Part shown: positions 861 to 33,675 of the stretch, one piece after another | How positions within the stretch are numbered: position 1 is the first letter of the stretch | How the letters are laid out: each line of letters begins with the position of its first letter | Source: a virus | Reading direction: 5' to 3' (one strand) | Length of the DNA stretch: 37,151 bases | IMG/VR virus record: IMGVR_UViG_3300021089_000012 | Location: 1 to 37,151 of that record | Notes under the pieces: model-generated | The model's database searches: none | What the model was told of the DNA's origin: nothing | Seen by the model: the letters and a program-made list of their open reading frames with translations, nothing else | Position numbers and translations under genes: made by a program

Positions 861-1290
861 TACTAAATTCCGTTATTTCGTGTTCTAACCATTTTTCAGC
901 AAGACATATATAGGCTCCTAGCCAATTAACATACATATATCTGATACTACTTTGTGGTTTTCTTACTGTTGCTACAAAAAATTCTGCATAATTAGCTTTA
1001 TAAAATAGTAAGGGTTCTAGCTCTTTGTCTTGAGCTTGTCTTAATAGTTTTTTCCACCATTGCACAAAATTATTACTTTTATTTGTGAAAACTTTACTTG
1101 TAACTGCGTCGTCTTTGTAAAATTTTACTTCTATCAGGAATACATTATGTTCATGTTCTAGGTATAGATCACCTTTGATCTTACCGCTCCCCGAACCAGG
1201 CGTTTGAATAAAATTCAATCCTGTATGCCTGTTTAGCATATTACCAACGAGCAGTTCGGCTTTTGCGCCTTTCGCTCTACTGTTTACCAT
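799..1290 (-). CDS. PD-(D/E)XK nuclease, Holliday-junction-resolvase-like (T5 D14 position)
   Basis: A 163-residue protein with an N-terminal PD-(D/E)XK core: E12 in AKAELLVG, D41 in GKIKGDLYL, and E54-x-K56 in FLIEVKFYK. This spacing is that of archaeal Hjc-type resolvases and related phage nucleases. The C-terminal half has no recognisable motif. The ATG at 1290 overlaps the stop of the acyl carrier protein gene (TAATG). It sits between sbcC and the flap endonuclease, where T5 carries D14. Junction cleavage is an inference from fold and neighbours; another structure-specific or end-processing nuclease is possible. Confidence 0.7.
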   Translation of the reverse strand: MVNSRAKGAKAELLVGNMLNRHTGLNFIQTPGSGSGKIKGDLYLEHEHNVFLIEVKFYKDDAVTSKVFTNKSNNFVQWWKKLLRQAQDKELEPLLFYKANYAEFFVATVRKPQSSIRYMYVNWLGAYICLAEKWLEHEITEFSNGNRIYEPWKASPEWELADS

Positions 1291-1514
1291 TAGGTATTAT
1301 TTTTTAGGTAAGTTACTAACTGTTCTACGGTTTTTAGAAGTTCCGAATCTTCGTCTGGTATTTCAATGTCAAATTCTTCTTCAATTTGCATTACTAACTC
1401 CACAGTATCTAGAGAATCTGCTCCCAGATCGTCCATAAAACTACCCCTAACAGCATCATACTCGATGTCTAGGTGTTCTGAAACTATTTTCTTTATTGCT
1501 GCTTCTATATCCAT
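1290..1514 (-). CDS. acpP: Acyl carrier protein
   Basis: A 74-residue acidic helical protein of normal ACP length. The phosphopantetheine-attachment motif is D33-S34-L35 within [19 protein letters not shown], followed by the usual IPDED helix. Holo-ACP carries acyl groups on Ser34-linked phosphopantetheine in the cytoplasm; the host AcpS would have to modify it because no transferase is visible here. The gene has a GGAG site upstream and is wedged between sbcC and the resolvase-like nuclease with only 3 bases to the former. No fatty-acid or polyketide enzyme is adjacent. A possible user is the GNAT/AHL-synthase-like protein at 9553-10143, but that link is speculation. Confidence 0.93.
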
Positions 1515-5386: not shown

Positions 5387-6667
5387 TCATAATACATTAA
5401 CCTTATAATCTTGTTTCATATAATAACCCATTCGAGCATTAGCTTGTCTACTGGCTGTTTTACCTTTTAAATGAATATCTACTACTGTGGGCTGTCTTTT
5501 ATTGGGTAATTTTCTTATTATTCTACCAATTAACTGGGTTAATAAAGGTTCGTTATTAACTGGTGTGCCTAGTACTAAACAACTAAGAGCATCTAAAGAT
5601 ATACCTTCTGAAAATATTGCTTGTGTTCCAAATAGTATATTTTTAGATTTTCCTACTAACTTCATAGTTTTTTCTCGTTCTCCAAATTCCATATCCCCTG
5701 TAATACATACTGAATTATCTCCTACCAATCTATGACAGACTTTTAGAAATGCAACTCTATCTGATACTACTAATACTTTGTGTCCTTCAGCAGCATACTT
5801 AGCTGCAATCATACTTATAGTGTGTACATATTCTTCAGTATTCACTAAGTGATTTATTCTTTCAGCCCAAGGCGTATAAGAACCGTCAAGGAATCTTATA
5901 TCTGTTTTAACAATATCAACTTTTGGAGTCATGTAATTTTCTTTGGGCGGTTTCAAAACATTATGCCCAAAATAGTCCCTAAAGACTACATGCCTACCAT
6001 CTTTTCTTTCCAACGTGCCTGTCAAACCTATCTTATATCTCGCGGGCATTTCGTCTATAATACGAGTGAAGGTCGGTGAACTCACATGATGCATCTCGTC
6101 TAAAACGACTGTCCCGAACAAATGTTTTATGTCTTCGACGCGTCGGTATAAACTCTGAATGTTCCCCACTACTATTGGGGACGAAGTGTCCATGACTCCT
6201 GACCCGATTCTGCCAGCTTGTATTCCGAAAGCTTTCTGTACTTCCTTTTCCCATTGGTTCCTCAAATTGGTTGTATGGGTTACTATGAGTGTCTTTTGAC
6301 CAAGCTTCGCAGCTATTGCTAAAGCTGCTACTGTCTTTCCCCAACTAACCCAAGCGTTAATTATAGCACTGTCATCTACTTCATCAACCGTCGTTTTTTG
6401 ACTTGCTCGTAAAGTAAACCTAAATTCAGGAAAGATAGCAGGCACCATAACCCGCTTATCGATTATATCGTAATCAGTAGGTACTAAATCCGTTCTCCCC
6501 ATTGGTATAGAAACTAAACCTTCTCTTAAAGGTCTAATTGTTTTTAGAACCATAGGGGGATCTTGCGGCATACGAGGAGGTAAAGTATATGTAAGTTCCT
6601 TTTCCATATCCTCAAGTAAACTAGCGCTACCTTCAATCTGTATCCTATTCGCATAAACTGCCTTCAT
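5387..6667 (-). CDS. SF2 DNA helicase (T5 D10 / T4 UvsW-like)
   Basis: A 426-residue superfamily 2 helicase. Motif I is NAWVSWGKTVAALA near residue 106, with WGKT as the phosphate loop. Motif II is VVLDEMHH near 189 and motif III GLTGTLERKDGRH near 214. Motifs V and VI are FSEGISLDALSCLVLGTP and QLIGRIIRKLP near 354-390. UvsW-type enzymes remodel branched DNA and replication forks. It starts with an ATGA overlap on the small membrane-protein gene and ends the long block begun at the primase promoter (17181-17209). About 70 bases separate its stop from the next gene, and promoter P1 lies in that gap. Confidence 0.93.
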   Translation of the reverse strand: MKAVYANRIQIEGSASLLEDMEKELTYTLPPRMPQDPPMVLKTIRPLREGLVSIPMGRTDLVPTDYDIIDKRVMVPAIFPEFRFTLRASQKTTVDEVDDSAIINAWVSWGKTVAALAIAAKLGQKTLIVTHTTNLRNQWEKEVQKAFGIQAGRIGSGVMDTSSPIVVGNIQSLYRRVEDIKHLFGTVVLDEMHHVSSPTFTRIIDEMPARYKIGLTGTLERKDGRHVVFRDYFGHNVLKPPKENYMTPKVDIVKTDIRFLDGSYTPWAERINHLVNTEEYVHTISMIAAKYAAEGHKVLVVSDRVAFLKVCHRLVGDNSVCITGDMEFGEREKTMKLVGKSKNILFGTQAIFSEGISLDALSCLVLGTPVNNEPLLTQLIGRIIRKLPNKRQPTVVDIHLKGKTASRQANARMGYYMKQDYKVNVL

Positions 6668-6933
6668 AATCCCATCATTTGTATATAATTTTTTACTAAA
6701 AACAAAAGACCTACTCCATTAAGAAGAATTAAAGCTCTATCTTTCCATACTAGAGATACTATTAACCACAGAAATACTCCTGTTATAGACAGTTGTAAGT
6801 CTAGTGTCGATAACTCTGGTACTCCTCTTATAGACATAGCACAAAGTATAATTATACTAGCTATCCATTTTAGATACCAGTCATATGTAGTTGTTCTATA
6901 CCTACCCCAATATTTTGTTTTTGGTTTATTCAT
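6664..6933 (-). CDS. Small integral membrane protein
   Basis: An 89-residue protein with a basic N-terminus (MNKPKTKYWGRYRTTTYDW) and about three hydrophobic segments: KWIASIIILCAMSI, LSITGVFLWLIVSLVW and LILLNGVGLLFLV. No catalytic motif. It overlaps AsnB upstream and the helicase downstream by ATGA junctions, so it is co-translated with both. Function unknown; an inner-membrane location is the only safe inference. Confidence 0.8.
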   Translation of the reverse strand: MNKPKTKYWGRYRTTTYDWYLKWIASIIILCAMSIRGVPELSTLDLQLSITGVFLWLIVSLVWKDRALILLNGVGLLFLVKNYIQMMGL

Positions 6934-8447
6934 TTAATTTGTGTTCTAAGAAAGTCTAATGCTTGCACTTTCCATCTATGAGTTAGTTGAGGGTGATTAT
7001 TGTCCCATGGACTAGACCAACCTACTTTTTCTTTTCTAGTTTGTACATGCTCTGGTAAGTAATCTTTCATTACTTCCCGCATTAAAAATTTATTTGTTCC
7101 TTTTGCATATTTCTTTGTCTGTCGAAATTTAACACTACCCATTATACTTAATACATACTTAGCAAAACTTTGAGTTAACAAAGGAATTCTACTTTCCATT
7201 CCAAACATTCCAGCAGTTTGATCCGTTGCTAGAATATTCTGTTCTGAAGTGCATAGTAAATCTGAAAAGAGAGAGTTATTCAGATGATCGTCTCCAAATG
7301 CTTTATATGGAAACCACCTCTGATTACTGAAGTTTCTTGTTAAGCTCTCACAATAACCTTTTTCAAATCTTCTGTTATGGTGAATATACCCTGAAAATAA
7401 TTCATCTCCACTATCTCCACTTAATACTACTTTACATCCTGCTTCTGCAGCTGCTTTACATAATAAATATCTAGGAGCTTGTCTATTATGATCTGCCCAT
7501 AAATAGTGTGTATTTGCTAACCACATCTTCCCATAGTTATCAACGTCATCTTTATCTAATGTTAGGTGGTGTACTTTATATCCCCAATCTTCGGCAGTTT
7601 TAATTGCCATAGCAGCCTCTCCAGCATAATTTTTCTGATCCCAATGCTTTCCTTTTTGATTTAAATTGTACCCCATTGTAAAAACTTCTAAGTCTATTTC
7701 GCAATCACGTAAAAGCGAGGCAACCATTGTACTGTCCATTCCACCACTTAGAAATAATGCTGTTTTGTTCTTATTTTTTGAAACTTTATGAACTGCTTCT
7801 TTGATATTATATCTAAACTCTGCTGTATCTAATGGTTCAGATAGCATATCAAAATAGTTCCATAAATTTTTCCTATGCACTTTAAAATTATCATTTAAAT
7901 CAAACTCTAACCAGCCACCTGGCTCTACCTTATGGATTTGTTTATATATACACTTGTCTCCAAAAGATTGAGTATTCCTTAATAGTTGAGGTGTCATTTC
8001 ATCTTCATCAATTTCTTTACTAAGAAAACTAGTCAAAGTAGTACTAAATTCAAAATTAGTTCCATCCCAGCGCCACCATAAAGGTTTAGCCCCAAAATGA
8101 TCTCGTACTAGAACTAGTTTGCCCTGCTTAGGTAGGTACCACGCGATTGATCCTTGCCAATCTGTGTTCTCTAAAAATTTGAACCCATATTTATCTAAGG
8201 CTTTTCCTAGCCATTCTGTATCATTAGGAATTGTCGTGTCATACATTTCCCCATTAAATAATAATACATTTCCTTTTGGGGTAATATAAGGTTGTAACTG
8301 CCTTTCTTGACTAATATCTAACAATACATGAGCAAAGGTAAACTTGTTGTCAGCATAATAGTGCAGAGCATCTGGTCCGCGATGCTGCTGTTTATCTATC
8401 ATTAAGTTTATTAACTGATGATTAGTTGTTCCGACAAATCCGCACAT
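6930..8447 (-). CDS. asnB: Glutamine-hydrolysing asparagine synthetase (AsnB-type)
   Basis: A 505-residue, apparently complete class B enzyme. The N-terminal class II glutaminase has the catalytic Cys2 of MCGFVGT, RGPD at 23-26 and NGE at 65-67. The synthetase domain has the PP-loop SGGMDS at 234-239 and a later SGDSGDELFSGY motif. The family moves glutamine ammonia to an AMP-activated carboxylate, classically aspartate; relatives amidate peptides, antibiotics and surface sugars. All active residues I can check are present, so it should be functional. It lies with GNAT, 2OG oxygenase, QueC-like and sulfotransferase genes, so a substrate other than aspartate is quite possible. Confidence 0.93.
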   Translation of the reverse strand: MCGFVGTTNHQLINLMIDKQQHRGPDALHYYADNKFTFAHVLLDISQERQLQPYITPKGNVLLFNGEMYDTTIPNDTEWLGKALDKYGFKFLENTDWQGSIAWYLPKQGKLVLVRDHFGAKPLWWRWDGTNFEFSTTLTSFLSKEIDEDEMTPQLLRNTQSFGDKCIYKQIHKVEPGGWLEFDLNDNFKVHRKNLWNYFDMLSEPLDTAEFRYNIKEAVHKVSKNKNKTALFLSGGMDSTMVASLLRDCEIDLEVFTMGYNLNQKGKHWDQKNYAGEAAMAIKTAEDWGYKVHHLTLDKDDVDNYGKMWLANTHYLWADHNRQAPRYLLCKAAAEAGCKVVLSGDSGDELFSGYIHHNRRFEKGYCESLTRNFSNQRWFPYKAFGDDHLNNSLFSDLLCTSEQNILATDQTAGMFGMESRIPLLTQSFAKYVLSIMGSVKFRQTKKYAKGTNKFLMREVMKDYLPEHVQTRKEKVGWSSPWDNNHPQLTHRWKVQALDFLRTQIK

Positions 8448-8761
8448 TAAATATTACCGTCCCAATTAAGATCAGTTTGTTGTAACATTTTTACTTTCCA
8501 GTCTCCTTCAATTTCAGACCAACTGGTTATAGTATTTACATCAATATCGTCCCATTTTTGAAACTCTAGATCATAGCAAAGTATTTTAGTATCTCCAGCA
8601 TTTTGTACCCAATTTTTATTGAATACCTGTGCATTTCTTGGTAAGTACTTATGGCAAGTAGTTACTTCTCTACTCTTGTGGTCACCACTAACTAAGCTGG
8701 TGTACTCTAATAAAATAATGCCTTCATGCATTTTGTCTATAATTTTTTGGTAGTCTATCAT
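8447..8761 (-). CDS. Small SH3-like phage protein (DUF2693/WYL_2-like)
   Basis: A 104-residue protein. The segment EGIILLEYTSLVSGDHKSRE followed by VTTCHKYLP resembles small phage proteins of the DUF2693/WYL_2 type (beta-rich, with a short arginine/threonine motif before a leucine-proline). The C-terminal part has ILCYDLEFQKWDDI. The start at 8761 forms TAATG with the lipoprotein stop; a longer reading to 8818 adds an unlikely basic leader. It ends in TAATG on the AsnB start. No enzymatic role can be read from it. Confidence 0.55.
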   Translation of the reverse strand: MIDYQKIIDKMHEGIILLEYTSLVSGDHKSREVTTCHKYLPRNAQVFNKNWVQNAGDTKILCYDLEFQKWDDIDVNTITSWSEIEGDWKVKMLQQTDLNWDGNI

Positions 8762-8994
8762 TATGCTATCCTCTCTATCTCCTCGCTGCAATAAACAGCT
8801 TCTTTTGTTATAACGCACTCTTCAAAGAGATCCTTAGGGGGATCTAGGTATAAAGGTGGATCGTAAATATCTTTATCTATTGTTTGGCATGATGCTAGTA
8901 TCGGTATTAAAAGAACTCCTACTATTAAAAGTTTAACAAACCAACGAAAAGATTTATCTTCTTTCCAGCCTCTAAAATTAACTTCTTTTTTCAT
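8761..8994 (-). CDS. Putative lipoprotein
   Basis: A 77-residue protein with a long basic n-region (MKKEVNFRGWKEDKSFRW), a hydrophobic stretch and the lipobox LASC at about residues 32-35, followed by a short acidic mature part with two more cysteines (EECVITKEAVYCSEE). Lipidation at Cys35 and membrane anchoring follow from the motif. The ATG at 8994 overlaps the upstream stop (ATGA) and has GGAG six bases before it; an upstream TTG is rejected. Role unknown. Confidence 0.7.
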   Translation of the reverse strand: MKKEVNFRGWKEDKSFRWFVKLLIVGVLLIPILASCQTIDKDIYDPPLYLDPPKDLFEECVITKEAVYCSEEIERIA

Positions 8995-9563
8995 ATCTTT
9001 CTCCAAGTATCCTTTTTCTTCTCACTAGAAAAGTCATATATTTTCCAAGGAATACTGTGATCATACAACAATCCTGCCCAAGTAACTTCTATATCGGGGG
9101 GACTTTTTTCTGCAAACGGAAAAGGTACATCTTTTAACCATAGAACAGTAGCTACGCCTTTCTTTTCCCTATTGGTTATCTTGTGATACTTTAGCTTAAG
9201 GCTTCTAGTCTTTTCATAATTTATAACTTTACCTTGATTATCAATAAACGTGCTACCTCTATGCTTCATTAGTCCAATTTCATCTTCAATCATATACTTT
9301 AAGGGGTATATACTTTTCATCGGACTCTGTATTCGTCTTAAGCCTAGTGTCTCTCCTTCCATATTTGTATCATCTAGTACTTGATCATCTATCCATACGA
9401 TACCGTCGAGTTCTTCTATATTATCTGTGTGTATTACAAATAACGGAAATGTTAATTCTTTTATTGTTGTTACTCTGCTATTCATCTCTTTCAATCTCCA
9501 AACTCTTCTTTGGGATCTTTGTCTTTGTTGTATTCTTTGATGCTGGAGTCGTCTAGGTTTCAT
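8991..9563 (-). CDS. Unknown protein, 190 residues
   Basis: I do not recognise this family. The first 26 residues are strongly basic and glutamine/arginine-rich. A globular part starts at MNSRVTTIKELTFPLFVI and contains DGIVWIDDQVLDD and a W/P-rich C-terminus. The ATG at 9563 overlaps the GNAT stop by 11 bases. An internal ATG at about 9485 (MNSRVTT), preceded by GAAAGAG, is an alternative start and would remove the basic leader. The cassette position suggests a link with the GNAT/AsnB genes but nothing more specific. Confidence 0.6.
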   Translation of the reverse strand: MKPRRLQHQRIQQRQRSQRRVWRLKEMNSRVTTIKELTFPLFVIHTDNIEELDGIVWIDDQVLDDTNMEGETLGLRRIQSPMKSIYPLKYMIEDEIGLMKHRGSTFIDNQGKVINYEKTRSLKLKYHKITNREKKGVATVLWLKDVPFPFAEKSPPDIEVTWAGLLYDHSIPWKIYDFSSEKKKDTWRKI

Positions 9564-10143
9564 GATAGGCGTTCAACCACTCATGCAATTTATAATGCTC
9601 CGCCTCTCTGTCATTGGGTTCGTATATCCAGCGATATCCTTCGTATCCCCACTTGTCCTTATAATTCCCAATGTATTTTAAATTCTTTTCTTTCTTTGCA
9701 TACGCTAATAGTATTGGGTGTCCATCAGCATACATATCCATTTGTCCATTTTCAGTACCACATATTCTTAATCCCCACTCAGGAGCCCACATATGACATA
9801 CTGCGTGGGACTGATCTGTAGGAAACATTGATACTCTCATATCTACTATTGTGCATTTATCCCATGTAGGATAGTTAAAGGTAAAATCATCTGTTTCAAA
9901 ACCTTGGGAAAAAGGTAGACAAACTCTAGTACATCCTAATAGTCTATCTCTTTCCCAAACCATTATAAAATGTGAATCTTTATCATGCTTATCAATAGGA
10001 TTCATAATACGTTTATTCCATACTACGAACATATTTACTCTTTGATGAAGAATTTTTCCATATTCTTCTTTTGTTAAGTCTCTAAAATGACGGATCTCTT
10101 TTATAATCCCATCACTGTAGGCTTCCTTTACTATTGCTGCCAC
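9553..10143 (-). CDS. GNAT-fold acyltransferase, possibly AHL-synthase-like
   Basis: A 196-residue protein. The pattern HQRVNMFVVW, then DKHDKDSHFIMVW, then RLLGCTRVCLP, then IVDMRVSMF follows the order seen in GNAT enzymes. It is specifically reminiscent of LuxI-type acyl-homoserine-lactone synthases (R-x-x-x-F-x-x-W, a D/E-rich strand, GC-x-R-LLP, then V-x-E-x-SRF). LuxI enzymes take acyl groups from acyl-ACP, and this phage encodes an ACP at 1290-1514. The start is GTG at 10143 in a TAGTG junction with the 2OG oxygenase. The GNAT call is fair; the LuxI likeness is tentative and the key glutamate is not conserved in an obvious way. Confidence 0.6.
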   Translation of the reverse strand: MAAIVKEAYSDGIIKEIRHFRDLTKEEYGKILHQRVNMFVVWNKRIMNPIDKHDKDSHFIMVWERDRLLGCTRVCLPFSQGFETDDFTFNYPTWDKCTIVDMRVSMFPTDQSHAVCHMWAPEWGLRICGTENGQMDMYADGHPILLAYAKKEKNLKYIGNYKDKWGYEGYRWIYEPNDREAEHYKLHEWLNAYHET

Positions 10144-10763
10144 TATACTTTTCCTCCTCTGACTGATTTTAATTTTGGTAACTCCAGCTTTGCCAGTCCG
10201 TAATTTGGTCTGAAGTCTTTGTTATCTAATGCGCTGTCCTTTTCTACATAATGCAAAAATAAGTGCCTAGAAGTTTTATGTTCTAGAGGCGCTCTACAAT
10301 GATATATTTCGCAACCTTTATAGAAAACAGCATCTCCTCTTTGTAGAATTACTGAAGCATCTGCTCCCCATATACCACCTATGTATGTTTCTGAGAAATG
10401 TATAGGCCAAGGCTTATTACTTATTTGTACAGTACAGGAGTACTCACATTGCCACCGATCTCTGTGCCACTTAAGTTGTGCCCCCTTTTCGTACTCTCTC
10501 ATAAGTCCATATGCAAGACTTAGAGATTTACCCTTTGCCCATTGATTTGCAACTGGAGTTTTGTAGAGTCCTATAGATTCGCAAAAACTATCTCCGTATA
10601 AATTATAGGCTTTCCCATCTTCATAAACTTCATTCACATCTTCATAAGTACATCTGTTATTTTCCTTTGCCAAGTTAAAATGGTTTTCTAAAATATCACA
10701 GGTTTCTTGAGATAAAAAATTTGCTTCTATCGTCCAGTCCTGAATCTCAGTTCTGTCCATCAT
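10143..10763 (-). CDS. 2OG-Fe(II) oxygenase (1)
   Basis: A 206-residue double-stranded beta-helix enzyme. The iron ligands are H100 and D102 in LKWHRDRW and H155 in EIYHCRAPLEH; R166 in TSRHLFLHY is the expected 2-oxoglutarate anchor. The family uses O2 and 2-oxoglutarate to hydroxylate or demethylate a substrate. The start at 10763 (or the adjacent ATG at 10760) overlaps the end of the QueC-like gene; a reading to 10850 would add a spurious leader. The neighbours are all modification enzymes. Substrate unknown. Confidence 0.88.
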   Translation of the reverse strand: MMDRTEIQDWTIEANFLSQETCDILENHFNLAKENNRCTYEDVNEVYEDGKAYNLYGDSFCESIGLYKTPVANQWAKGKSLSLAYGLMREYEKGAQLKWHRDRWQCEYSCTVQISNKPWPIHFSETYIGGIWGADASVILQRGDAVFYKGCEIYHCRAPLEHKTSRHLFLHYVEKDSALDNKDFRPNYGLAKLELPKLKSVRGGKV

Positions 10764-11556
10764 CTCTTTGATCTTTCCCCATCTGTTGTTCAATATTATG
10801 AAAACGAGTAAAATACTCTTTCCCTTCCTGATATCTGAATTTAGCGTCACTTGCTAACTTATGTGCAGCTTTAAATTCTCCACACTTATAGCACTCTCCG
10901 CACGGAATATACCCAGTAATTTCATCATCCTTAGTAAGAGTTCCTTTGGGGAAGGGGCAACTCCATATCATTTCATATAGGTTAGGATCATGACGCATTA
11001 TTAAAGAAAGCATTTCTGCTTTACTCATAAAGTCCAGTGGATTTCTTACTTCTGGAACATCTCTAATTGCATTGAAGTGTGCACCAGATGAGTCTAAACA
11101 ATCACTTAGATAATTTATCATAATTTTGCGATACTCTCTAAATTGTAGACGCATACGCATATCATCTTCCGCATTACCTCCCATCATAAACCATTTAAAT
11201 TTAAACTTGCCTGGGCTACCTAATATTATTGACATAAAAGCACTTAGTCCACTTATAATAATTGGAACTTCTCTAGTATATCCTATTGTAGAAAGCATAG
11301 AAGTATCATTTCCATATGGTAAGTTAAAATACTCTGCCTGTTTCCTACTATAAAAAGCCATTGCATCCGCAAATGGTCCATAGCGTGGTTCATACCAATG
11401 TACGCACCAAGGAAATATCTCTGGATCTTTTACTGCGTACAACAATGTAGCAGTACTCTCTACTCCTGCACTAAGGGGCATATATGCATTTGTTCGGGGG
11501 TCAGCCCCAGCTACTTCTAATGCCATATCTTCTGTGCTCATTATATTTTCATTCAT
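10747..11556 (-). CDS. QueC-like ATP pyrophosphatase with an altered PP-loop
   Basis: A 269-residue PP-loop ATPase. The loop reads LSAGVEST at residues 28-35, a variant of the SGGxDS signature. A Cys4 zinc site at C200 (WSC), C219, C222 and C225 (CGECYKC) matches the C-terminal motif of QueC, which turns 7-carboxy-7-deazaguanine into preQ0 using ATP and ammonia. QueD, QueE, FolE or a transglycosylase are not in the window. It may work on another carboxylate, or take a host deazaguanine precursor. It overlaps the sulfotransferase upstream and the 2OG oxygenase downstream. Family membership is good; reaction uncertain. Confidence 0.75.
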   Translation of the reverse strand: MNENIMSTEDMALEVAGADPRTNAYMPLSAGVESTATLLYAVKDPEIFPWCVHWYEPRYGPFADAMAFYSRKQAEYFNLPYGNDTSMLSTIGYTREVPIIISGLSAFMSIILGSPGKFKFKWFMMGGNAEDDMRMRLQFREYRKIMINYLSDCLDSSGAHFNAIRDVPEVRNPLDFMSKAEMLSLIMRHDPNLYEMIWSCPFPKGTLTKDDEITGYIPCGECYKCGEFKAAHKLASDAKFRYQEGKEYFTRFHNIEQQMGKDQRDDGQN

Positions 11557-12154
11557 AGTTTAATTCTTCATAGTCTTTCTGATAGATTTTTTTCATCAGT
11601 TTTATACTATTTTTATCCCATTTTATTGGTTGTGTTCGAGGAACATTAAAATCATGTCTTGGTTGAATATTTAATGCTTCCCAAATTGTTTGTTCTTCTA
11701 GTTTATGTACTTCTGCCTTACCGATATAGTCTACTTGTAAATACGGAATATTTAGGTCTACTAAATACGGTTCTTCGTCTATCTCTGCATTAGGTATATT
11801 ATACATTAAACCATATAGTGTACGATAGATCCACTCCTCAAAAGATGTATGTACTAATTTAGTCCATACAAAGAAATGATAAACACTCTCAAGTCTTGCT
11901 CGGGGGTGTCTTACTAGAGTATAATACTTATAATCGGGATAGAACTCTATCAACTCATTATAAGTAGCGTGTTTCTTTTGAAGCTCTTTAGTACCCATAG
12001 ATACAGTAGTTTGCTTCTGTATAGCTTGTTTCATTGGCATCTCATTAACCATCGCCGTAGCACTTCTATACTTTGTTGCTAAGGCTCGTTCTACACTTGT
12101 TCCTCCAGTTCGTGGAATATGAACAAATCCTATCCTAGCTTCATTTACGATCAT
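11549..12154 (-). CDS. PAPS-dependent sulfotransferase
   Basis: A 201-residue Sulfotransfer_2-type enzyme. The 5'-phosphosulfate-binding loop HIPRTGGTS is at residues 12-20. The 3'-phosphate-binding segment VRHPRARLESVYHFF starts near residue 81. Such enzymes move sulfate from PAPS to hydroxyls of sugars, lipids or proteins. Both cofactor motifs are intact. It joins the SDR upstream by ATGA and the QueC-like gene downstream by a short overlap. It would need host PAPS. Substrate unknown. Confidence 0.88.
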   Translation of the reverse strand: MIVNEARIGFVHIPRTGGTSVERALATKYRSATAMVNEMPMKQAIQKQTTVSMGTKELQKKHATYNELIEFYPDYKYYTLVRHPRARLESVYHFFVWTKLVHTSFEEWIYRTLYGLMYNIPNAEIDEEPYLVDLNIPYLQVDYIGKAEVHKLEEQTIWEALNIQPRHDFNVPRTQPIKWDKNSIKLMKKIYQKDYEELNYE

Positions 12155-12849
12155 TTCTCACGGGAGTCGTATATCTTACTAAGTGTTGGACTATTTTTTT
12201 CTAACATCATTTTATTACTTTGGATAATAGAAGCGCCCATGTGAGCTGCTGCCCTATCTCTTATAGGAGCAACTTCCTCTGGGGGTTGCATCTTATTAGA
12301 TATTATTACTTCAGGAATCACATAATCTTGGTACTCCATCATATTTAATAATACTAAAGCTGCTTCATAGGGATCAATGAAATTCTCATACGTATCTCCC
12401 ACTAGAGCAGTATTAGTCCATCCTAGACTAACATTAGATACTCTACACGCGTTCTTATAAGGCCATTGAAGGGCAGCATTGATACTGTAATCCCTCAACT
12501 CCTTTTTATCTTGTTGATACACCTCACCTGTTAAACCTGGTTGGTAGATACTTGCAGAGCCTGTACTGATTATAAACTTGCCCTCTCTATCTTTCCATTG
12601 CTGATGCAGAACTTTTAATATTTTAATCTGCAATTTAGGAACCCAAGCGTTGTTAAAAACAACATCAATATCTTTTCTAAGAATATCGTTAATAATATTA
12701 TCAGCATCTTTCTCCAGTATATTAAAGCCCGTAGCTCTACTATATCCTGTAACGTCATGTCCTTTAAACATACAGTGCTCGTATATTTCTTTTCCGATAC
12801 CGCTTGTGTGTCCTGTAATCCCTATTTTTCGTGTGGGTGGTCTTTTCAT
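12151..12849 (-). CDS. Short-chain dehydrogenase/reductase
   Basis: A 232-residue SDR. The Rossmann cofactor motif is GHTSGIGKEI at residues 13-22. DVVFNNAW near residue 62 replaces the usual NNAG strand. A serine in ISTGSASIY and Y-x-x-x-K in VYQQDKKEL supply the catalytic residues. The family oxidises or reduces alcohols or ketones with NAD(P)(H) and includes nucleotide-sugar enzymes. It is first of the metabolic cassette after the polymerase and a 49-residue membrane protein, with the start at 12849 and an AGGAT ribosome-binding site. Confidence 0.85.
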   Translation of the reverse strand: MKRPPTRKIGITGHTSGIGKEIYEHCMFKGHDVTGYSRATGFNILEKDADNIINDILRKDIDVVFNNAWVPKLQIKILKVLHQQWKDREGKFIISTGSASIYQPGLTGEVYQQDKKELRDYSINAALQWPYKNACRVSNVSLGWTNTALVGDTYENFIDPYEAALVLLNMMEYQDYVIPEVIISNKMQPPEEVAPIRDRAAAHMGASIIQSNKMMLEKNSPTLSKIYDSREK

Positions 12850-12853
12850 AGTC

Positions 12854-13003
12854 TTATCCTAATGAGTTTAGTGAATAAATAATTGAACCAAAGGTTGCAA
12901 TCATCAATATCAACATTGTGAGATCCTCTTGATGCTTAGCATCTCGTCTGCGTCTGTAGTCATTACGGCCAACGCGCACCGCTTTCTTCTCTTGTAGATT
13001 CAT
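12854..13003 (-). CDS. Small single-span membrane protein (49 aa)
   Basis: A 49-residue frame filling the gap between polymerase and SDR. It starts MNLQEKKAVRVGRNDYRRRR, a strongly basic cytoplasmic end, then has one hydrophobic span MLILMIATFGSIIYSL and a short tail. The ATG at 13003 lies three bases after the polymerase stop, and its stop is four bases before the SDR start. The layout (basic N-terminus, one span, tight packing) supports a real gene. Function unknown. Confidence 0.6.
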   Translation of the reverse strand: MNLQEKKAVRVGRNDYRRRRDAKHQEDLTMLILMIATFGSIIYSLNSLG

Positions 13004-13005
13004 TT

Positions 13006-15264
13006 CTAATATACTTTTTCCCATTTGCCAAAACTGTAGTCATCACCTATCTCGAAGTCACAACCTACAGGGCAATTTGGAATGGAAAGTCCTCGTTCTT
13101 TTTGAACGAAGAATTTCAACTTATCACAATAGATTTCCATTTCATCTTCTGGTACTTCAGCTAAAATACTGTCATGTACTAGTCCGAATATTTTGGCATC
13201 CATCCCTGTTCTATTTATGAATTTTTGCATTTCCACAGCACCCAATAGATTTATGTCTGATGCTGCAGATTGAACTAAAAAGTTAATACCACTTCTAACC
13301 TCGTGAGAGGCTATGCCTTTATCCTTACTCTTGGCGTTACGAAGTCTGCGCTTCCTTCCGAATTGACTATATACAAACTCATTGGCTCTAATAAAAGCCT
13401 GTTGTGCATCTAGCCAACCTTTCAATTTAGGGAAAGACTCAAAGTATCCTGCAATAACTCTATTTGCTTCCTGCACGGTAAATTCTTTACCGCTATCTTT
13501 ACTAACTTGCCAACTAATCTTGGCAGGCCCAGCTCCATACATTATTCCAAATGTAACAGCTTTCGCCTGTTGTCGTCTGTCTTTGTAGAGTTCATCTACT
13601 TGTCCAACTTCACAAGGTAGTTTAAAGACTTGCTTTGCGATTGTAGAGTGGAAGTTTCCCCCTTGTCTAAATACGTCTTGCAAACCTTTATCGTCTGACA
13701 AAACTGCGGCAACATACACCTCTGCCGTTGTTAAGTCCATTGACACAATTTTGTGTCCTTTACGCGCTTTAATACATCCTTTTACTGTGGGGTTATCCCG
13801 CGGTAACTGTTGCATATTAAGCTTTCCACTAGAAGATAGACGACCCGAGGTAGTTCCATGTAAATTGAAACCTGTTCTTAGTCTACTATCCCTGTCCAAA
13901 TTTGGTATAATTTTATCCAAATATGTAGTTTTTATTTTTACTTTTTGTCTAATTTCTAAAATTAGTTCGGGAACGTGATGGTCTTGTGCTAATTGTCCCA
14001 AAACCTCGGCATCAGTGGAATCAGCCCCAGTACCCGTCTTTTTACCCGTTGGGGTTAAACCAATATAATCATATAAAAGTGATCGTAATTGAACTGTACT
14101 ATTTGGATTAAATGGGCTTCCCTTTGCTTTTTCAAATTGTCTTACCTCAGGAAACTCATATAACTTTTCTATAGCAACTTCTATATCTTTTTGCATTATG
14201 CTCTGTCCTAGTGTAAGTCTTTCGAGATCAAACGGTACACCATTTGATTCTACTTGTTTTAGGAAGTCACAACCCTCAAGTAATATATTGTCATATACCC
14301 ACTTAAGTTTATCGTTCTTAGCTAAAGCTACCGACATCTTCTCATATAATAAAAAGGTTACTACAGCGTCCATAGCTGCGTAGTTCTTCATTATATCAAA
14401 AGGTATCAAATCATAACTGAAGGCGGCTTTAAGTATGCCGTGCTGTTTTCTATAGTTATTACCCCAATCCTCTAACGGCTTTTCATAATCGCCATAAGGA
14501 GTGTGCTTCATAGCAAGTTGTTTCAATCCATGAGTGCCTGGGTTTTCATCAAACATATAATGCATAAGCATAGTATCTTCAAATTTTGGAAATTTAAAGT
14601 TGAAATGATATTCAAACCATTGAAGGTCGAACTTAGCATTATGAAATACAACTGTTTTCTTATCAAACAGTTCTTGCATCTTTGCTTCTATTTCATTATC
14701 AATGATATTAGCATCGCAATAGCAACCATGGTCAGGCTCGTAAGACATGCTAAACCCGAGCATATAACCATCTCGCGCGTATAAACTACTTGTCTCTGAG
14801 TCAAGTGCAACATACTCTCTAGGTGCATCGATTGCTGACTGTAAGAACTCAAGGCATTTTCCTTTGTCTTGGATTCCGTAACATTTTTCTTCATCTAATT
14901 TCTCTAATTTTAATTCACCACTTACGTACTGTGAAATACTCTTTATTGCTTCTTCAAAATTCTTTTTTGCTTCAGGTCTGAACTTAATAACAGCAGGATT
15001 CATAAGTGCTAAAAACTTATCATTTATGATTTTGCCATTATATTCAGTCACGGAAGACTTGTTTGTAAAATGTTTAAACGCTTCAGCTCCAACTAGAATA
15101 AGCCACTCGTAATCGTCTGTGTCTATCTCTAAGTCTACATTTCGTTTTAGAACTTTCTGCACACCACTATCTGAACATAATGCAAATCTATCAAATTCAA
15201 ACTCAAAATACTTATCGTAGTTTTGAGCGGTGGGTTTCGTTTCTATTAGTGCTATTGTAGCCAT
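13006..15264 (-). CDS. polA: Family A DNA polymerase with 3'-5' exonuclease (T5 D9-like)
   Basis: A 752-residue replicative polymerase. The exonuclease motifs are ALDSETSSLY (ExoI), VFHNAKFDLQWFEYHF (ExoII) and NYAAMDAVVTF (ExoIII). Polymerase motif A is SMDLTTAEVYVAAVL, motif B is RRQQAKAVTFGIMYGAG (Phe at the position of E. coli Phe762) and motif C is GLVHDSILAEVP. Motif C has HDS where bacterial Pol I has HDE. The first 120 or so residues precede the exonuclease and include LILVGAEAFKHFTN and an NPAVIKFRP segment that recall uracil-DNA glycosylase folds. The start overlaps the nuclease gene upstream by 13 bases. Confidence 0.96.
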   Translation of the reverse strand: MATIALIETKPTAQNYDKYFEFEFDRFALCSDSGVQKVLKRNVDLEIDTDDYEWLILVGAEAFKHFTNKSSVTEYNGKIINDKFLALMNPAVIKFRPEAKKNFEEAIKSISQYVSGELKLEKLDEEKCYGIQDKGKCLEFLQSAIDAPREYVALDSETSSLYARDGYMLGFSMSYEPDHGCYCDANIIDNEIEAKMQELFDKKTVVFHNAKFDLQWFEYHFNFKFPKFEDTMLMHYMFDENPGTHGLKQLAMKHTPYGDYEKPLEDWGNNYRKQHGILKAAFSYDLIPFDIMKNYAAMDAVVTFLLYEKMSVALAKNDKLKWVYDNILLEGCDFLKQVESNGVPFDLERLTLGQSIMQKDIEVAIEKLYEFPEVRQFEKAKGSPFNPNSTVQLRSLLYDYIGLTPTGKKTGTGADSTDAEVLGQLAQDHHVPELILEIRQKVKIKTTYLDKIIPNLDRDSRLRTGFNLHGTTSGRLSSSGKLNMQQLPRDNPTVKGCIKARKGHKIVSMDLTTAEVYVAAVLSDDKGLQDVFRQGGNFHSTIAKQVFKLPCEVGQVDELYKDRRQQAKAVTFGIMYGAGPAKISWQVSKDSGKEFTVQEANRVIAGYFESFPKLKGWLDAQQAFIRANEFVYSQFGRKRRLRNAKSKDKGIASHEVRSGINFLVQSAASDINLLGAVEMQKFINRTGMDAKIFGLVHDSILAEVPEDEMEIYCDKLKFFVQKERGLSIPNCPVGCDFEIGDDYSFGKWEKVY

Positions 15265-17212: not shown

Positions 17213-17803
17213 CTATTTTTTAGAGGACTTTCCGTCTTTGTTTTTACGGGATTCTAATGGTGTCTTTATTAGATCCTTCAATCTTTTTGCTTTAATTCTT
17301 GCTTTCCCCAACTCTGATTTATGGTTCCATTCAAGTTCATCCCCTTCTTTTTCAAAATCTGTCATCAAGTTTCCACTAGGATCATGTGTATCTTCATAGT
17401 ATCTACTTTTCCATACCAATTCTACCATTTGAAAATATACTGCTACTGCTGTATCTCGAAAATCTTTATCTCCCCATAGATACCATACTAGCCAATACTC
17501 TTTATCTATTCGACAAACTCTTATCTCTTGTTCTCCTAAATCAGGTCGTCCTTGTACTATCTCAGCGTATGCTCTCAGTCTTTGACTACCTGCAATTGGG
17601 TACCAGTTAGGCATTACTAAAACAGGACTTTTCATTCCATGATCGTATAAACTATCACAAAGTTTTTGATTCAAAGGAACAGATTTTATATTCTCTTTTA
17701 CTTTGGGTTGTTCTAGCAACCAATTTATAGAGCGCACATACCAAGTATGAGGGGGCATAGGTACTAACTCTGCTGTTGCTCTGCTTATTCTGTCATTTGC
17801 CAT
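17213..17803 (-). CDS. ParB-like nuclease-domain protein (1)
   Basis: A 196-residue protein. An N-terminal ParB/sulfiredoxin-like fold is suggested by LYDHGMKSPVLVMPNWYPI and then AGSQRLRAYA, which stands for the G-x-R-R box of ParB. The C-terminal third is basic and lysine-rich (KRLKDLIKTPLESRKNKD). No ParA partner or helix-turn-helix is visible, so plasmid-style partition is unlikely. Phage ParB-like domains can act as nucleases or, in some cases, CTP/ATP-dependent modifiers. It is last in the DnaB block, immediately upstream of promoter P2. Confidence 0.65.
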   Translation of the reverse strand: MANDRISRATAELVPMPPHTWYVRSINWLLEQPKVKENIKSVPLNQKLCDSLYDHGMKSPVLVMPNWYPIAGSQRLRAYAEIVQGRPDLGEQEIRVCRIDKEYWLVWYLWGDKDFRDTAVAVYFQMVELVWKSRYYEDTHDPSGNLMTDFEKEGDELEWNHKSELGKARIKAKRLKDLIKTPLESRKNKDGKSSKK

Positions 17804-22324: not shown

Positions 22325-23081
22325 ATTTTCTCTCTAGGTCTTTAATCATTACGTCCGCCATTAAGCGGTGTGCTCCTGCTAAGGGGTGATCTTTTTTCCC
22401 GATAGGGAGACCTGCCTTTTTTGTTCTATCATAAAAACCATCTTCTAGTAAACATGGTAATTCTTTTAGTATTTGTTTTTTACTTAATTCTTCCGACTTC
22501 CAATAATTGTTTGCCGCTTCTAAGTAGTCCTCATCTAGCAAATACAAGAAGGGTCTATATTGCCCACTCGAATATGTATAAAATAGATAAGGAATACCTA
22601 ATGATTCTAGAAAGTATTTTGTTGAGAGCATATAAGATATACTATATTTTATATTATACTCTCTGTTTCTTACTTGTTTCATAAATCCATTAGTAATTAA
22701 CCAATGTTGATGTAATTGATCTGGGTGTTTATAGAGATTAGATTTTTCTATATTTGTTGAATCTCTTTCCCAGTTAGTTGCTCTCCATCTTGGACCACTA
22801 ATAGCTTTTTGTGGCAGGTTGGTATTACCTGAGATGTTAGTTCCTGTTTGTAAGTACTCCATTCTATTAGCACCCGTCCACATTATAATTACAGCTTCAT
22901 ACTTATGATTCAAACAATGATTCATAGTAGTTCTCCATATTCTATCATTGGATCCGCCTACCTTAGCGTCATTAAATTCTTCTGTATTAAAGTGTTTCAC
23001 AACTAGATTTGAGAATCTCTTGTTAAATTTATCCTCTAATTCATATCCGTTAGTGAAGCTACATCCATTAAAATAAATCAA
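22299..23081 (-). CDS. SGNH-hydrolase-like protein
   Basis: A 260-residue protein. Block I is FNGCSFTNGYE with the serine in G-C-S instead of G-D-S. A block II glycine and block III asparagine may be KVGGSNDRIW and WTGANRMEY, and a terminal D/H pair is suggested by KKDHPLAGAHRLMADVM. The family hydrolyses or transfers acyl esters on lipids and glycans. The start is TTG at 23081, overlapping the carbamoyltransferase stop, with GGAG 11 bases upstream; no ATG is available at that end. Coupling to the carbamoyltransferase suggests a shared pathway. Confidence 0.75.
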   Translation of the reverse strand: MIYFNGCSFTNGYELEDKFNKRFSNLVVKHFNTEEFNDAKVGGSNDRIWRTTMNHCLNHKYEAVIIMWTGANRMEYLQTGTNISGNTNLPQKAISGPRWRATNWERDSTNIEKSNLYKHPDQLHQHWLITNGFMKQVRNREYNIKYSISYMLSTKYFLESLGIPYLFYTYSSGQYRPFLYLLDEDYLEAANNYWKSEELSKKQILKELPCLLEDGFYDRTKKAGLPIGKKDHPLAGAHRLMADVMIKDLERKYENIKKNN

Positions 23082-24451
23082 AATACTTTTACTCCATATA
23101 ACTTTTCAAATGCTTTACCATCCTTTCTAGTATTAACCATAGGTTTCCCCTTTATATTTAAACTTGTATTTAGTAACATAGGGCAACCTGTTCTATTATA
23201 AAACTCTTCTAGAATTTTTCTCAAAATAGAACTACTATCTTCCTTTACAACTTGAACTCTAGCGGTTCCATCAACGTGTGTTACTGATTTGTGGTCGTGT
23301 CTTGCTCGAGAAACGAACTGCATATACTCGTTCTTTTCTCCATCAAAATACATATTTGCGTACTCCTCAAGAATTGCAGGGGCAAAGGGTCTAAACTTTT
23401 GTCTTCGCTTAATCTTATTAACTTTGCCTTTAATATTATATCGGGGGTCTCCAAGTAAACTACGATTCCCTAAGGCTCTCGGTCCGAACTCTGCCCTACC
23501 ATTAGCAACTCCTACTACTTTATTTGCTATTAGAGTATCAACTACGGTTTTAGGATTTAATACTCCTTCTATATTGTGTCCTAGAAAGCAATCTTTAAAT
23601 TCTACTTGGCGACATATATAACCTAACGCAGCCCCTAAACTACTCCCTCCATCACCAGGATTTGGAAATATCCAAATCTTATTAAAGAGTCTAGGTAATA
23701 CTTTACTATTAGCTACGCAGTTGAGTGCAACTCCACCTCCATAACAAATGTTTGATCCATACTCTCTAGCTTTTAACATTATAGCATGGATTCGATTTTC
23801 AACTTCAAACTGAGCACTAGCCGCTATATCTTCTGGAGCACAGCCTTGGAAGTCAAAAACTCCAAAACCTTTATGCCAATTTCTATCAGGTAGATCAAAG
23901 CACCATCGCATTGAAACTATAGGTTCACCAAACGCAGCCATCCCCATAGTAATGTATTCATCTTCATTAGGCTTTAAACCAAGACGCTTCGTTATAGCAC
24001 TGTAAAATAGTCCGATGCTGTGAGGGTATTTTTCTTCCCACACACATTCTAGCCCAAACTCTTTTGGAACCCATATACTCGAACATGCCCACTCTCCAAT
24101 AGCATCAATTACTACTATAACAGTATCGTCATTGAAAGGTGCAGTATAATACGCTGCAGCTGCATGGCTTTGATGATGATTTAAATGGTGCTGACATATA
24201 TTCGAATATGTTACGGGAGACATGGAATGATACGTTCTACGTTCATTCTTTAGTTTAGTATCTTCGTAAAAGACCGAGACATCTGCGTTCACATTCAGTA
24301 ATTCGGGCGGTAAGAATGGATCGTTTTTTCTGCCTGAATATCTTTCTGCCTGTGCAGCCCAATGAATACTTACTTTATCTGTATAGGGAGAAACTTCCAC
24401 TAAAGAAGCGGAAGCGTCGTGAAATCCTTCGCTAACACCCAATACTTTCAT
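23078..24451 (-). CDS. NodU/CmcH-family O-carbamoyltransferase
   Basis: A 457-residue enzyme that makes carbamoyl-adenylate from carbamoyl phosphate and ATP and moves the carbamoyl group to a hydroxyl. The Kae1-like domain has the metal-binding HHQSHAAAAYYTAPF at residues 92-106, GMAAFGEP near 170 and YGGGVALNCVANSKVL near 237. The C-terminal domain has GRAEFGPRALGNRSLLGDPR near 318 and KFRPFAPAIL near 352. It is shorter than NodU/TobZ (about 560), but every core motif is present. Acceptors known for the family include Nod factor sugars, antibiotics and, in phages, 5-hydroxymethylcytosine in DNA. It lies beside a 2OG oxygenase and the SGNH gene. Confidence 0.93.
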   Translation of the reverse strand: MKVLGVSEGFHDASASLVEVSPYTDKVSIHWAAQAERYSGRKNDPFLPPELLNVNADVSVFYEDTKLKNERRTYHSMSPVTYSNICQHHLNHHQSHAAAAYYTAPFNDDTVIVVIDAIGEWACSSIWVPKEFGLECVWEEKYPHSIGLFYSAITKRLGLKPNEDEYITMGMAAFGEPIVSMRWCFDLPDRNWHKGFGVFDFQGCAPEDIAASAQFEVENRIHAIMLKAREYGSNICYGGGVALNCVANSKVLPRLFNKIWIFPNPGDGGSSLGAALGYICRQVEFKDCFLGHNIEGVLNPKTVVDTLIANKVVGVANGRAEFGPRALGNRSLLGDPRYNIKGKVNKIKRRQKFRPFAPAILEEYANMYFDGEKNEYMQFVSRARHDHKSVTHVDGTARVQVVKEDSSSILRKILEEFYNRTGCPMLLNTSLNIKGKPMVNTRKDGKAFEKLYGVKVF

Positions 24452-32396: not shown

Positions 32397-32884
32397 CTTT
32401 CCATAAACCAAGTTACTAAGGAATGTCTTACTCCTTTTGTTACGGGCTTGACTCTGTGCCTTAGTGATGGATTAAAAACAATTATTGATAGAGGATCAAA
32501 TGCATGGTCTGGTAGTTCAATTCCATCAATTTCTAACTCACCACCTTCATACTGATCTTTTGGAGACAATACCGAAATAAAACTATATTTTCTATACCCT
32601 TCTCCGCTTCCATCTTTATGCCAGTTATAGTAGTTCCCTGCTTTATAAGTTAAGACATTTGCTGTCTCTGGTTTTAGATCCCCGTAGGGTTTCATAAACT
32701 CAGATAGCCAAGGATCTATTTTATCCCTTAAGAATCTAACATCTACTTTTCTAGTATCATCAAGCCTAGCCTTTATTGTTGAACTGCCTACTACGCCTGG
32801 CGTTGGTACATGGGTTTTTAAACACTCTATACAAGCACTATATACTTCTACACTTAGCGCGTCTTTAAAGACTGCTACCTTCAT
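32393..32884 (-). CDS. 2OG-Fe(II) oxygenase (5), prolyl-hydroxylase-like
   Basis: A 163-residue, complete small dioxygenase. H89-x-D91 (YNWHKDGSGEG), the strand FISVLSPKDQYEGGELEI, H143 (NPSLRHRVKPV) and R153 (GVRHSLVTWF) fulfil every expected iron and 2-oxoglutarate position of the P4H-like/PiuC-like family. It joins the glycosyltransferase by TAATG and the JmjC enzyme by ATGA, so all three should be produced together. Confidence 0.92.
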   Translation of the reverse strand: MKVAVFKDALSVEVYSACIECLKTHVPTPGVVGSSTIKARLDDTRKVDVRFLRDKIDPWLSEFMKPYGDLKPETANVLTYKAGNYYNWHKDGSGEGYRKYSFISVLSPKDQYEGGELEIDGIELPDHAFDPLSIIVFNPSLRHRVKPVTKGVRHSLVTWFMER

Positions 32885-33675
32885 TAGAATTCCTCTGGGT
32901 TAGAGATCGTCTTTACTTTTCGTGCATAGTCCCAGAGTATTGCTGCAATATCATCTCTCATATAAGTGCCTTTACCCCAAGGCGAATAGATAGGATGCCA
33001 AGGTTGAGTACTCATACTTGTAAAATGTATATGATAAATCTCCTCTAAATCAAAATTAGGTATTACATCATTTGCTTCAGGCGTTCCAGCTACCGGCAAG
33101 ATTTCATCTCCGTACCATGAGGTATCTCTACCATCAAAGCTATTCCATCTAGGATTTAATTCTTTGATTATACCTGATACATTTTCTCTGTGAGGGTTGC
33201 CTATGTCTCTTATAAACTGGTGTTTATAATTTTTCTCACAATTTTTTATTTCACTAATCGGAGCTATAAATTCTTGTGCTTTTTCACAATCAATTACCAT
33301 AACACTATCGCAGAACCAACCCTTTGCTTTAGGTGTTTGAGCCCACTCCATACCATTATCGTGTAGTCCGTCCCACGCCATTGCAAAAGCATGATCCTCT
33401 AAGTCCATGTTATATAAAACCGATATATCTCTAAGGTTTAACTGATCTACATCTGTATAAATTGCTCTACCTTCAAAATTACATAGTTCAGGTACTGCAT
33501 ACCTGAAACAAGTAAAAGGTGTTCCCCATCCATTCTTATTCCAATCTTTAAACATCTTTGGTCTTAAGAAACGTATGTCCAATTCTGCATCTGTATTCAT
33601 ATATAAACTGTATAGATATATTTGCTCTATCCATTTATCTTCTGTGTCGCTTGTGCCTATAAATATTTTAATCAT
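32884..33675 (-). CDS. GT-A-fold glycosyltransferase
   Basis: A 263-residue protein. It begins IKIFIGTSDTEDKWIEQIYL, then GTPFTCFRYAVPELC and the metal-binding D-x-D motif AIYTDVDQL at residues 72-80. A downstream HIHFTSMSTQPWHP contributes another likely His. This order is that of GT8-like and related enzymes using nucleotide sugars with a divalent metal. Acceptor unknown: DNA base, LPS or virion protein. Followed directly by the oxygenase pair. Confidence 0.8.
   Translation of the reverse strand: MIKIFIGTSDTEDKWIEQIYLYSLYMNTDAELDIRFLRPKMFKDWNKNGWGTPFTCFRYAVPELCNFEGRAIYTDVDQLNLRDISVLYNMDLEDHAFAMAWDGLHDNGMEWAQTPKAKGWFCDSVMVIDCEKAQEFIAPISEIKNCEKNYKHQFIRDIGNPHRENVSGIIKELNPRWNSFDGRDTSWYGDEILPVAGTPEANDVIPNFDLEEIYHIHFTSMSTQPWHPIYSPWGKGTYMRDDIAAILWDYARKVKTISNPEEF

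Follow-up and report, generated by a model that had tools for sequence, protein, structure and literature searches.

The linear virus record IMGVR_UViG_3300021089_000012 (37,151 bases; a 37 kb fragment, termed the window over its whole length) was found to carry an island of enzyme genes in its replication operon, between the genes for a family A DNA polymerase and a D10-type helicase. The phages that bear this island are uncultured, apparently marine relatives of phage T5, and its contents are nested from relative to relative at this one site. We tentatively interpret it as an accretion island whose genes, with a carbamoyltransferase and glycosyltransferases, may form a pathway that tailors a sugar or acyl compound. 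Nine open reading frames (ORFs) occupy positions 6930-12849, the polymerase-to-D10 gap, all on the minus strand; in order of transcription they encode a short-chain dehydrogenase/reductase (SDR), a sulfotransferase, a QueC-like protein, a 2-oxoglutarate (2OG) oxygenase-like protein, a GNAT-type acyltransferase, a 190-residue protein, a lipoprotein, an SH3-like protein and AsnB, and are followed by a DUF6552 gene. Within the stretch that each contig covers, the same gene order was observed in 13 viral contigs retrieved by means of the QueC-like protein; L002 and L003 nearly duplicate the window, and the sulfotransferase gene is missing from L014. An enzyme cassette between polymerase and D10 helicase, as proposed in a preliminary description of the window, is largely borne out. 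Its gene list stood in part: the lipoprotein gene is present, although its slot is variable in relatives and the DUF6552 gene also lies in the gap.

The same description had emphasized overlaps joining nearly all of these genes. With the start codons chosen, all ten neighbouring pairs from the SDR gene to D10 do overlap, by 1-17 nucleotides (nt). Tight packing is weak evidence alone because 31 of the 46 other neighbouring pairs in the window overlap too (Fisher p 0.048 versus the island), and gene overlap is largely a habit of the whole genome.

The order of the surrounding module, ligase-D5-helicase-primase-pol-T5.123-D10-D12-D13-D14-D15, matches the T5-type replication module (PHROG 4386 and 244 are common with T5; the remaining genes were named by position and reading). 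In T5 itself (AY543070) the same flanks are separated by exactly one gene, T5.123, without an island, and the earlier statement that polymerase and D10 are close neighbours in T5 was thus correct. The 190-residue protein of the gap had been listed as an unknown member of the cassette (9563-8991) and is instead the homologue of this resident gene. The PHROG 4386 profile that it matches also matches T5.123 and the pol-helicase gap protein of Vibrio phage Pontus, and of the 21 Pol-D10 intervals without an island, 20 gave a match to a T5.123 homologue. Since T5.123 sits between polymerase and D10 in T5 itself, its homologue is a core gene that the island flanks on both sides.

Pol-to-D10 intervals were compared by use of a polymerase-based scan (best 80 of 110 viral loci), in which 48 complete intervals, including near copies such as L100/L112 and L124-L127, were counted and 32 incomplete ones were dropped. 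No island gene was detected in 21 of the 48 intervals, which have gaps of 346-1036 nt and distant polymerases. Seven were intermediate and, by the first profiles used, carried genes for AsnB (7), the SH3-like protein (7), GNAT (3), the QueC-like protein (2) and the sulfotransferase (2); better profiles later detected GNAT in more relatives of intermediate type. The other 20 intervals, with close polymerases, were of full type and carried AsnB (20), QueC-like (20), GNAT (20), SDR (18), SH3-like (18), 2OG-like (17) and sulfotransferase (5) genes. The contents are nested in steps, from no island gene to the SH3-like and AsnB pair, to the addition of sulfotransferase, QueC-like and GNAT genes, and to the full set. 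This nesting, rather than a tree, suggests that the SH3-like and AsnB genes were acquired first. An AsnB-based scan (best 80 of 449 viral loci, a sample ranked by similarity that cannot show that AsnB relatives never occur elsewhere) provided 75 further AsnB loci, in 73 of which a helicase gene follows AsnB and in the other two of which the contig ends. In one locus (L260), AsnB is split into two neighbouring ORFs (711 and 137 bits) by a frameshift or an assembly error.

Additional genes, named by reading, were found at the site: a methyltransferase-like gene in L006-L008, with an NfuA-like gene in L008, and in a sister clade a glutaredoxin-like gene that replaces the lipoprotein gene. Extra 2OG-like genes are also found at the site, and relatives add a cytidylyltransferase-like gene, an APS-kinase-like fusion and a GDP-mannose-dehydratase-like gene. 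Members come and go at one site, and the island is therefore modular. Subsets that recur at one place speak in favour of a site of accretion, and they tell against a pathway that is fixed and all-or-none. By synteny, the genes do occur in subsets in related phages, at the same site and not singly and scattered, the arrangement that had been named beforehand as speaking against the cassette.

For the enzymes of the island, its SH3-like protein and an acyl carrier protein (ACP) encoded outside it, dN/dS ratios were 0.11-0.29 (compared with L004 and L012; ACP with L004 only), versus 0.06-0.12 for the polymerase, helicase and T5.123 homologue in the same comparisons; dS relative to L012 exceeds 2 and is saturated for the SDR and the T5.123 homologue. 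Thus, the island genes are maintained by purifying selection and are less constrained than the core. The conserved island, these ratios and the nested contents agree with the earlier view of a biosynthetic-looking cassette.

The ACP gene, which did not figure in the cassette as first described, lies between the D13 and D14 homologues; in T5, D13 adjoins D14 with no ACP gene. It was found in 18 of 30 distinct D13-D14 loci, equal to 15 contigs (three counted twice), of which one begins at AsnB, whereas the other 14 extend into the island and show SDR- or 2OG-type genes there. Of the 12 loci without ACP, six are from island-free phages, five from phages of AsnB-type or intermediate content (two being fragments that start at the SH3-like gene) and one from G001, a record of 102.9 kb with a full island and no ACP at D13-D14. 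The ACP gene largely follows the full island set.

The QueC-like protein gave no Pfam match, and its profile matched no solved structure by sequence. A model was generated with AlphaFold2 from 18 homologues (pLDDT 82, pTM 0.80), and by VIA-align its first match was B. subtilis QueC (3bl5; Z 14.8, rmsd 3.7, 181 residues aligned), tied with Cap9 (Z 14.3) and Erwinia QueC (2pg3; Z 14.1), with QatC at Z 11.6. Foldseek placed the thiolase NcsA (6scy) first (E 2.2e-5) and QueC third (4.7e-5). Residues C200, C219, C222, C225, G31, E33, S34, N128, D131 and K179 are invariant in the 18 sequences. The likeness to the QueC proteins of E. coli and B. subtilis comprises the predicted fold, the position of the PP-loop, the four cysteines and a lysine that matches K165. 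By contrast, the PP-loop SGGxDS of QueC is replaced by SAGVES (a SAGxES-type loop), the cysteines are spaced C(x)18CxxCxxC rather than C(x)8CxxCxxC, and the substrate motifs YxQxHxxE, VPxRN and YPDC, which the accessible part of one report includes in the canonical QueC signature (PMC13329287), are not kept. In a forced global alignment (low probability, 5.4), the one in which the lysine is retained, Tyr131 and Asp133 of E. coli QueC correspond to M135 and L137 and the VPxRN loop falls in a gap; in this register Tyr or Asp was found in none of the 18 sequences. The corresponding Tyr and Asp recognise the nucleobase and are replaced in QatC, according to the available portion of a second report (PMC13279940). 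The protein is of QueC fold by prediction, and a role as 7-deazaguanine synthase is not supported. A QueC-like profile scan of bacterial genomes, based on short exact peptide patterns that distant relatives would escape, detected no relative, and no match was obtained when 50,697 phage records were searched with the QueC-like, GNAT and SDR proteins.

Most of the enzyme labels first given to the island were upheld, AsnB and the sulfotransferase by Pfam cut-offs, the SDR by motifs (its Pfam match being just below cut-off), and GNAT and the QueC-like protein by predicted fold. The SDR keeps the glycine motif and YxxxK, with S98, Y111 and K115 invariant in 8 sequences. GNAT had no Pfam match above cut-off, and its model was nearest to PA0115 (Z 16.1, rmsd 2.1, 139 aligned), then ElaA (14.5), LasI (13.9) and FeeM (11.9), with PA0115 (1xeb) also first by Foldseek. 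The predicted model confidently places the protein in the GNAT superfamily, the likeness to LasI being one of fold only. AsnB keeps Cys2, N65, G66, E67, D76, SGGxDS and K474, which we take to be the catalytic set by comparison to E. coli AsnB, and the segment bearing E. coli R49 is deleted. At 191.3 bits it is under the asn_synth_AEB equivalog cut-off (267.1) and has the features of an Ntn/PP-loop AsnB-like amidotransferase; it shares domain architecture and glutaminase and PP-loop residues with bacterial AsnB proteins encoded near surface-polysaccharide genes, from which it is set apart by the deletion and by an identity of 22-29%. The 2OG-like protein, presumed earlier to hydroxylate, had no meaningful Pfam match. 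Its homologues occur in cyanophages and pelagiphages, some annotated as 2OG-Fe(II) oxygenase. A putative iron site reads H/D/H (HxD...H) in the window protein and in 9 of 28 distinct homologues and, by alignment, H/N/H in 14; of the 26 homologues whose sequence extends over this site, 16 have Asn in place of Asp. The oxygenase label is therefore only indirect and unproven, and the catalytic status is uncertain. A second, short sulfotransferase-like gene (27891-28250), just under the Pfam cut-off, has homologues in G001 and G002, and further 2OG/JmjC/DUF6445-type genes of the window lie at 29892-30518, 31695-32411, 32393-32884 and 24624-25196.

A gene for a NodU/TobZ-family carbamoyltransferase, located 7.8 kb upstream of the polymerase in the window, was detected in 14 of 16 records with the island and in none of the 3 without it. 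G007 and G018, the two island-bearing records in which the gene was not found, seem to stop a short way upstream of the polymerase. A GT8 glycosyltransferase was found in all four island-bearing records longer than 90 kb and in none of the three island-free records (8 of 15 overall), and GT29 in 4 of 13 records, all island-bearing, and in none of 14 control genomes. Neighbours of bacterial AsnB relatives were also surveyed (16 of 80 loci hand-picked, mostly marine, with 84 of 116 extracted proteins scanned from 12 loci and no background set). The 84 proteins included Glycos_transf_1 (7), Glycos_transf_2 (4), GDP_Man_Dehyd (4), FkbM methyltransferase (4), Polysacc_synt_2 (3), WecG (2) and NeuB (1) matches, as well as unrelated families, e.g., transporter parts (4). 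In the portion of a phage-metagenome study that was available, carbamoyltransferases of unmodified contigs have group 1 glycosyltransferases and the like as neighbours, and only in modified contigs did carbamoyltransferase occur together with thymidylate synthase (PMC8670742). Taken together, the carbamoyltransferase, glycosyltransferase and AsnB-neighbour evidence points to, without proving, a sugar-type target. Separately, G001 (L152; 9445-13003) and G002 (L157; 4021-8462) were observed to have a common cluster that includes a sialyltransferase-like gene of family GT29 and lies close to repetitive genes read as tail-fibre-like. G001 (L150; 103 kb) also carries, by reading, curli-, FecR- and CHASE2-like genes and a PPK2-like kinase gene at 8069-13611 and 1230-1850.

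From these observations we infer an order of acquisition, a shared pathway and its target. Genes would have been added stepwise on both sides of T5.123 in the early replication operon, beginning on the helicase side with the SH3-like and AsnB genes and continuing on the polymerase side with the sulfotransferase, QueC-like and GNAT genes; the SDR and oxygenase-like genes, with the ACP gene between D13 and D14, would be later additions. AsnB and the QueC-fold enzyme may use ATP to activate carboxylates and form amides, GNAT may transfer acyl groups, perhaps from the carrier protein, the SDR and oxygenase may set the oxidation state, and the sulfotransferase and carbamoyltransferase may cap hydroxyls. 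The most likely target would be a sugar or acyl-sugar, produced early in infection and located on the virion or the surface of the host, and not DNA. Several points weigh against this proposal. No product, host or isolate is known, no sugar-specific enzyme is encoded inside the island of the window itself, and the QueC-like protein, ACP and oxygenase-like protein are without an assigned role in a glycan pathway. Another 6 island-bearing records gave no GT29 match and 4 gave no GT8 match, these being shorter fragments; near copies enter the co-occurrence counts, in which just 3 records are island-free; and identity to the best 80 bacterial relatives of AsnB is only 22-29%.

That members come and go also makes one fixed pathway doubtful and leads to the main rival, a loose hot spot in which each gene was gained and kept for its own benefit. 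This explanation, which we consider quite possible if on balance doubtful, accounts for the mosaic, nested content, with 2OG-, methyltransferase-, NfuA-, glutaredoxin- and cytidylyltransferase-like genes that come and go, and for L114, L116 and L128, in which the SH3-like and AsnB genes are present without SDR, QueC-like, GNAT or sulfotransferase genes. It accounts less well for the joint presence of AsnB, QueC-like and GNAT genes in 20 of 20 full-type intervals, and for a remote ACP gene that, one known exception apart, goes with the SDR/2OG-bearing type. That same association, seen in 14 of the 15 ACP contigs, would suit a small molecule built on the ACP (an acyl amide, possibly a signal or lipid), with the SDR and ACP shaping the chain, GNAT transferring it, and AsnB and the QueC-like protein amidating it. 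The structural likeness of the GNAT model to LasI and FeeM and the match of the SDR to the FabG-like PHROG 3142 are in line with such a product, which is nonetheless unlikely: G001 has the island and no ACP at D13-D14, the best GNAT matches are PA0115 and ElaA, and no ketosynthase was noticed, although no search aimed at ketosynthases was made.

Placement among replication genes had led to the suggestion of DNA or nucleotide modification, and the presence of a QueC-like enzyme and a carbamoyltransferase adds to it, as a phage-metagenome carbamoyltransferase makes 5-carbamoyloxymethylcytosine according to the part of PMC8670742 at hand. The 5-hydroxymethylcytosine carbamoyltransferase contigs of that source have a PF02543/PF16861 carbamoyltransferase in common with the window, but pair it with a thymidylate-synthase-type gene. 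By contrast, among related records other than the window (35-105 kb, possibly incomplete, with several near copies) Thymidylat_synt (PF00303) was found in 0 of 19, 16 of which have the island, and TGT (PF01702) and PTPS/QueD-type (PF01242) families in 0 of 13. The 5-methylcytosine methyltransferase family DNA_methylase (PF00145) was above cut-off in 0 of 13, with two weak matches in G003 and G004, which like G005 were judged island-free at the Pol-D10 site only. As a control, Thymidylat_synt, TGT, PTPS and DNA_methylase were matched in 9, 14, 9 and 10 of 14 named control genomes. With TGT and PTPS not found and the QueC motifs lost, 7-deazaguanine modification was rejected as the leading reading; so was 5-carbamoyloxymethylcytosine, with no hydroxymethylase-type gene in the 19 records and no above-cut-off 5-methylcytosine methyltransferase in the 13. 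Hypermodification of DNA or nucleotides is thus quite unlikely, with the reservation that an unfamiliar base-making enzyme would be missed. Insertion into an early operon at a site that tolerates it would account for the position equally well, and early takeover of host metabolism or of the host surface is possible.

The fold of the QueC-like protein also brings in protein conjugation, whereby a small carboxylate would be joined to a protein N-terminus in the manner of Cap9 for counter-defence or host control. Besides the Z scores to Cap9 and QatC, both proteins of anti-phage defence, the PP-loop and zinc cysteines are kept and the deazaguanine-recognition residues are changed, as in QatC, which also has a C(x)19C spacing (PMC13329287 and PMC13279940, as far as their available parts extend). 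The phage protein is, however, shorter than QatC (about 400 residues), and no CD-NTase or QatB-like partner was recognised, no search aimed at such partners having been made. No island protein of the window starts with MGG or MGT by reading, although a partner may lie elsewhere, and the presence of AsnB in this operon points to amidation of a small molecule. On this evidence conjugation to protein is most improbable.

Compared to these rivals, we continue to favour, tentatively, an accretion island with a sugar- or acyl-tailoring pathway. A broader proposal, which we regard as somewhat unlikely, is that of an undescribed pathway around the QueC-fold ligase, an enzyme detected to date in these phages alone and no longer able to recognise deazaguanine. 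With AsnB, an ElaA/LuxI-like acyltransferase and a phage ACP it would, early in infection, make a new conjugate of acyl-amide or amidated-sugar type on the host surface, the virion or a protein. Sets of auxiliary metabolic genes in marine phages have similar content (2OG-like, sulfotransferase and glycosyltransferase genes); the island differs from them by its fixed site around one core replication gene and its nested contents. A literature search by title and abstract returned no paper describing this island among the matches listed. The relatives provide a readable series at one replication-operon site, from the bare T5 order to the full enzyme island, by which its build-up can be followed. 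They also add a phage branch to the QueC fold, recently found repurposed in anti-phage defence, and illustrate that position, chemistry and target are three separate questions that first-look annotation merges.

Table 1. Island genes, flanking genes and associated genes of the window.
Feature	Coordinates	Strand	Evidence
DNA polymerase, family A (flank)	13006..15264	-	45.7% identity to Aeromonas phage AhSzq-1
SDR-type reductase (FabG-like), 232 aa	12151..12849	-	adh_short E 1.7e-5, just under cut-off; PHROG 3142 FabG-like 1.5e-9
Sulfotransferase, 201 aa	11549..12154	-	Sulfotransfer_2 25.5 bits, cut-off 22; 5/20 full-type intervals
PP-loop ATPase of predicted QueC fold, 269 aa, without deazaguanine-binding motifs	10747..11556	-	predicted fold
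Putative 2OG-Fe(II) oxygenase-like protein, 206 aa	10143..10763	-	PHROG 2954 'ferrochelatase' 3.4e-26
Acyltransferase of predicted GNAT fold, 196 aa	9553..10143	-	AlphaFold2 model pLDDT 92, pTM 0.88
T5.123 homologue, 190 aa, core gene, outside the insert	8991..9563	-	PHROG 4386 1.2e-9
Small lipoprotein-like gene	8761..8994	-	variable slot; glutaredoxin-like gene there in sister clade (by reading)
Small SH3-like protein, 104 aa, in most cases close to AsnB	8447..8761	-	18/20 full-type, 7/7 intermediate intervals; alignment
AsnB-type glutamine amidotransferase/synthetase, 505 aa	6930..8447	-	Asn_synthase 1.4e-38
DUF6552 membrane protein, AsnB-D10 gap	6664..6933	-	PF20189 4.6e-16; variable
D10-type helicase (flank)	5387..6667	-	gene order as in T5 and Vibrio phage Pontus
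Acyl carrier protein, between D13 and D14 homologues	1290..1514	-	PF00550 4.3e-12
NodU/TobZ-family carbamoyltransferase	23078..24451	-	PF16861 8.3e-50
GT8-like glycosyltransferase	32884..33675	-	PF01501 7.3e-5, just under cut-off

The Pfam scan covered 30 of the 57 listed genes of the window. Three ParB-like genes were noted by eye, of which those at 17213-17803 and 18492-19220 gave no Pfam match and that at 34182-34616 gave a weak, sub-cut-off DUF6558_C match. A short ORF on the minus strand in the polymerase-SDR gap (12862-12996) encodes a small protein with one hydrophobic stretch; counterparts were found at the same spot in L004, L006-L008, L010 and L012, and different short ORFs occur there in the sister clade.

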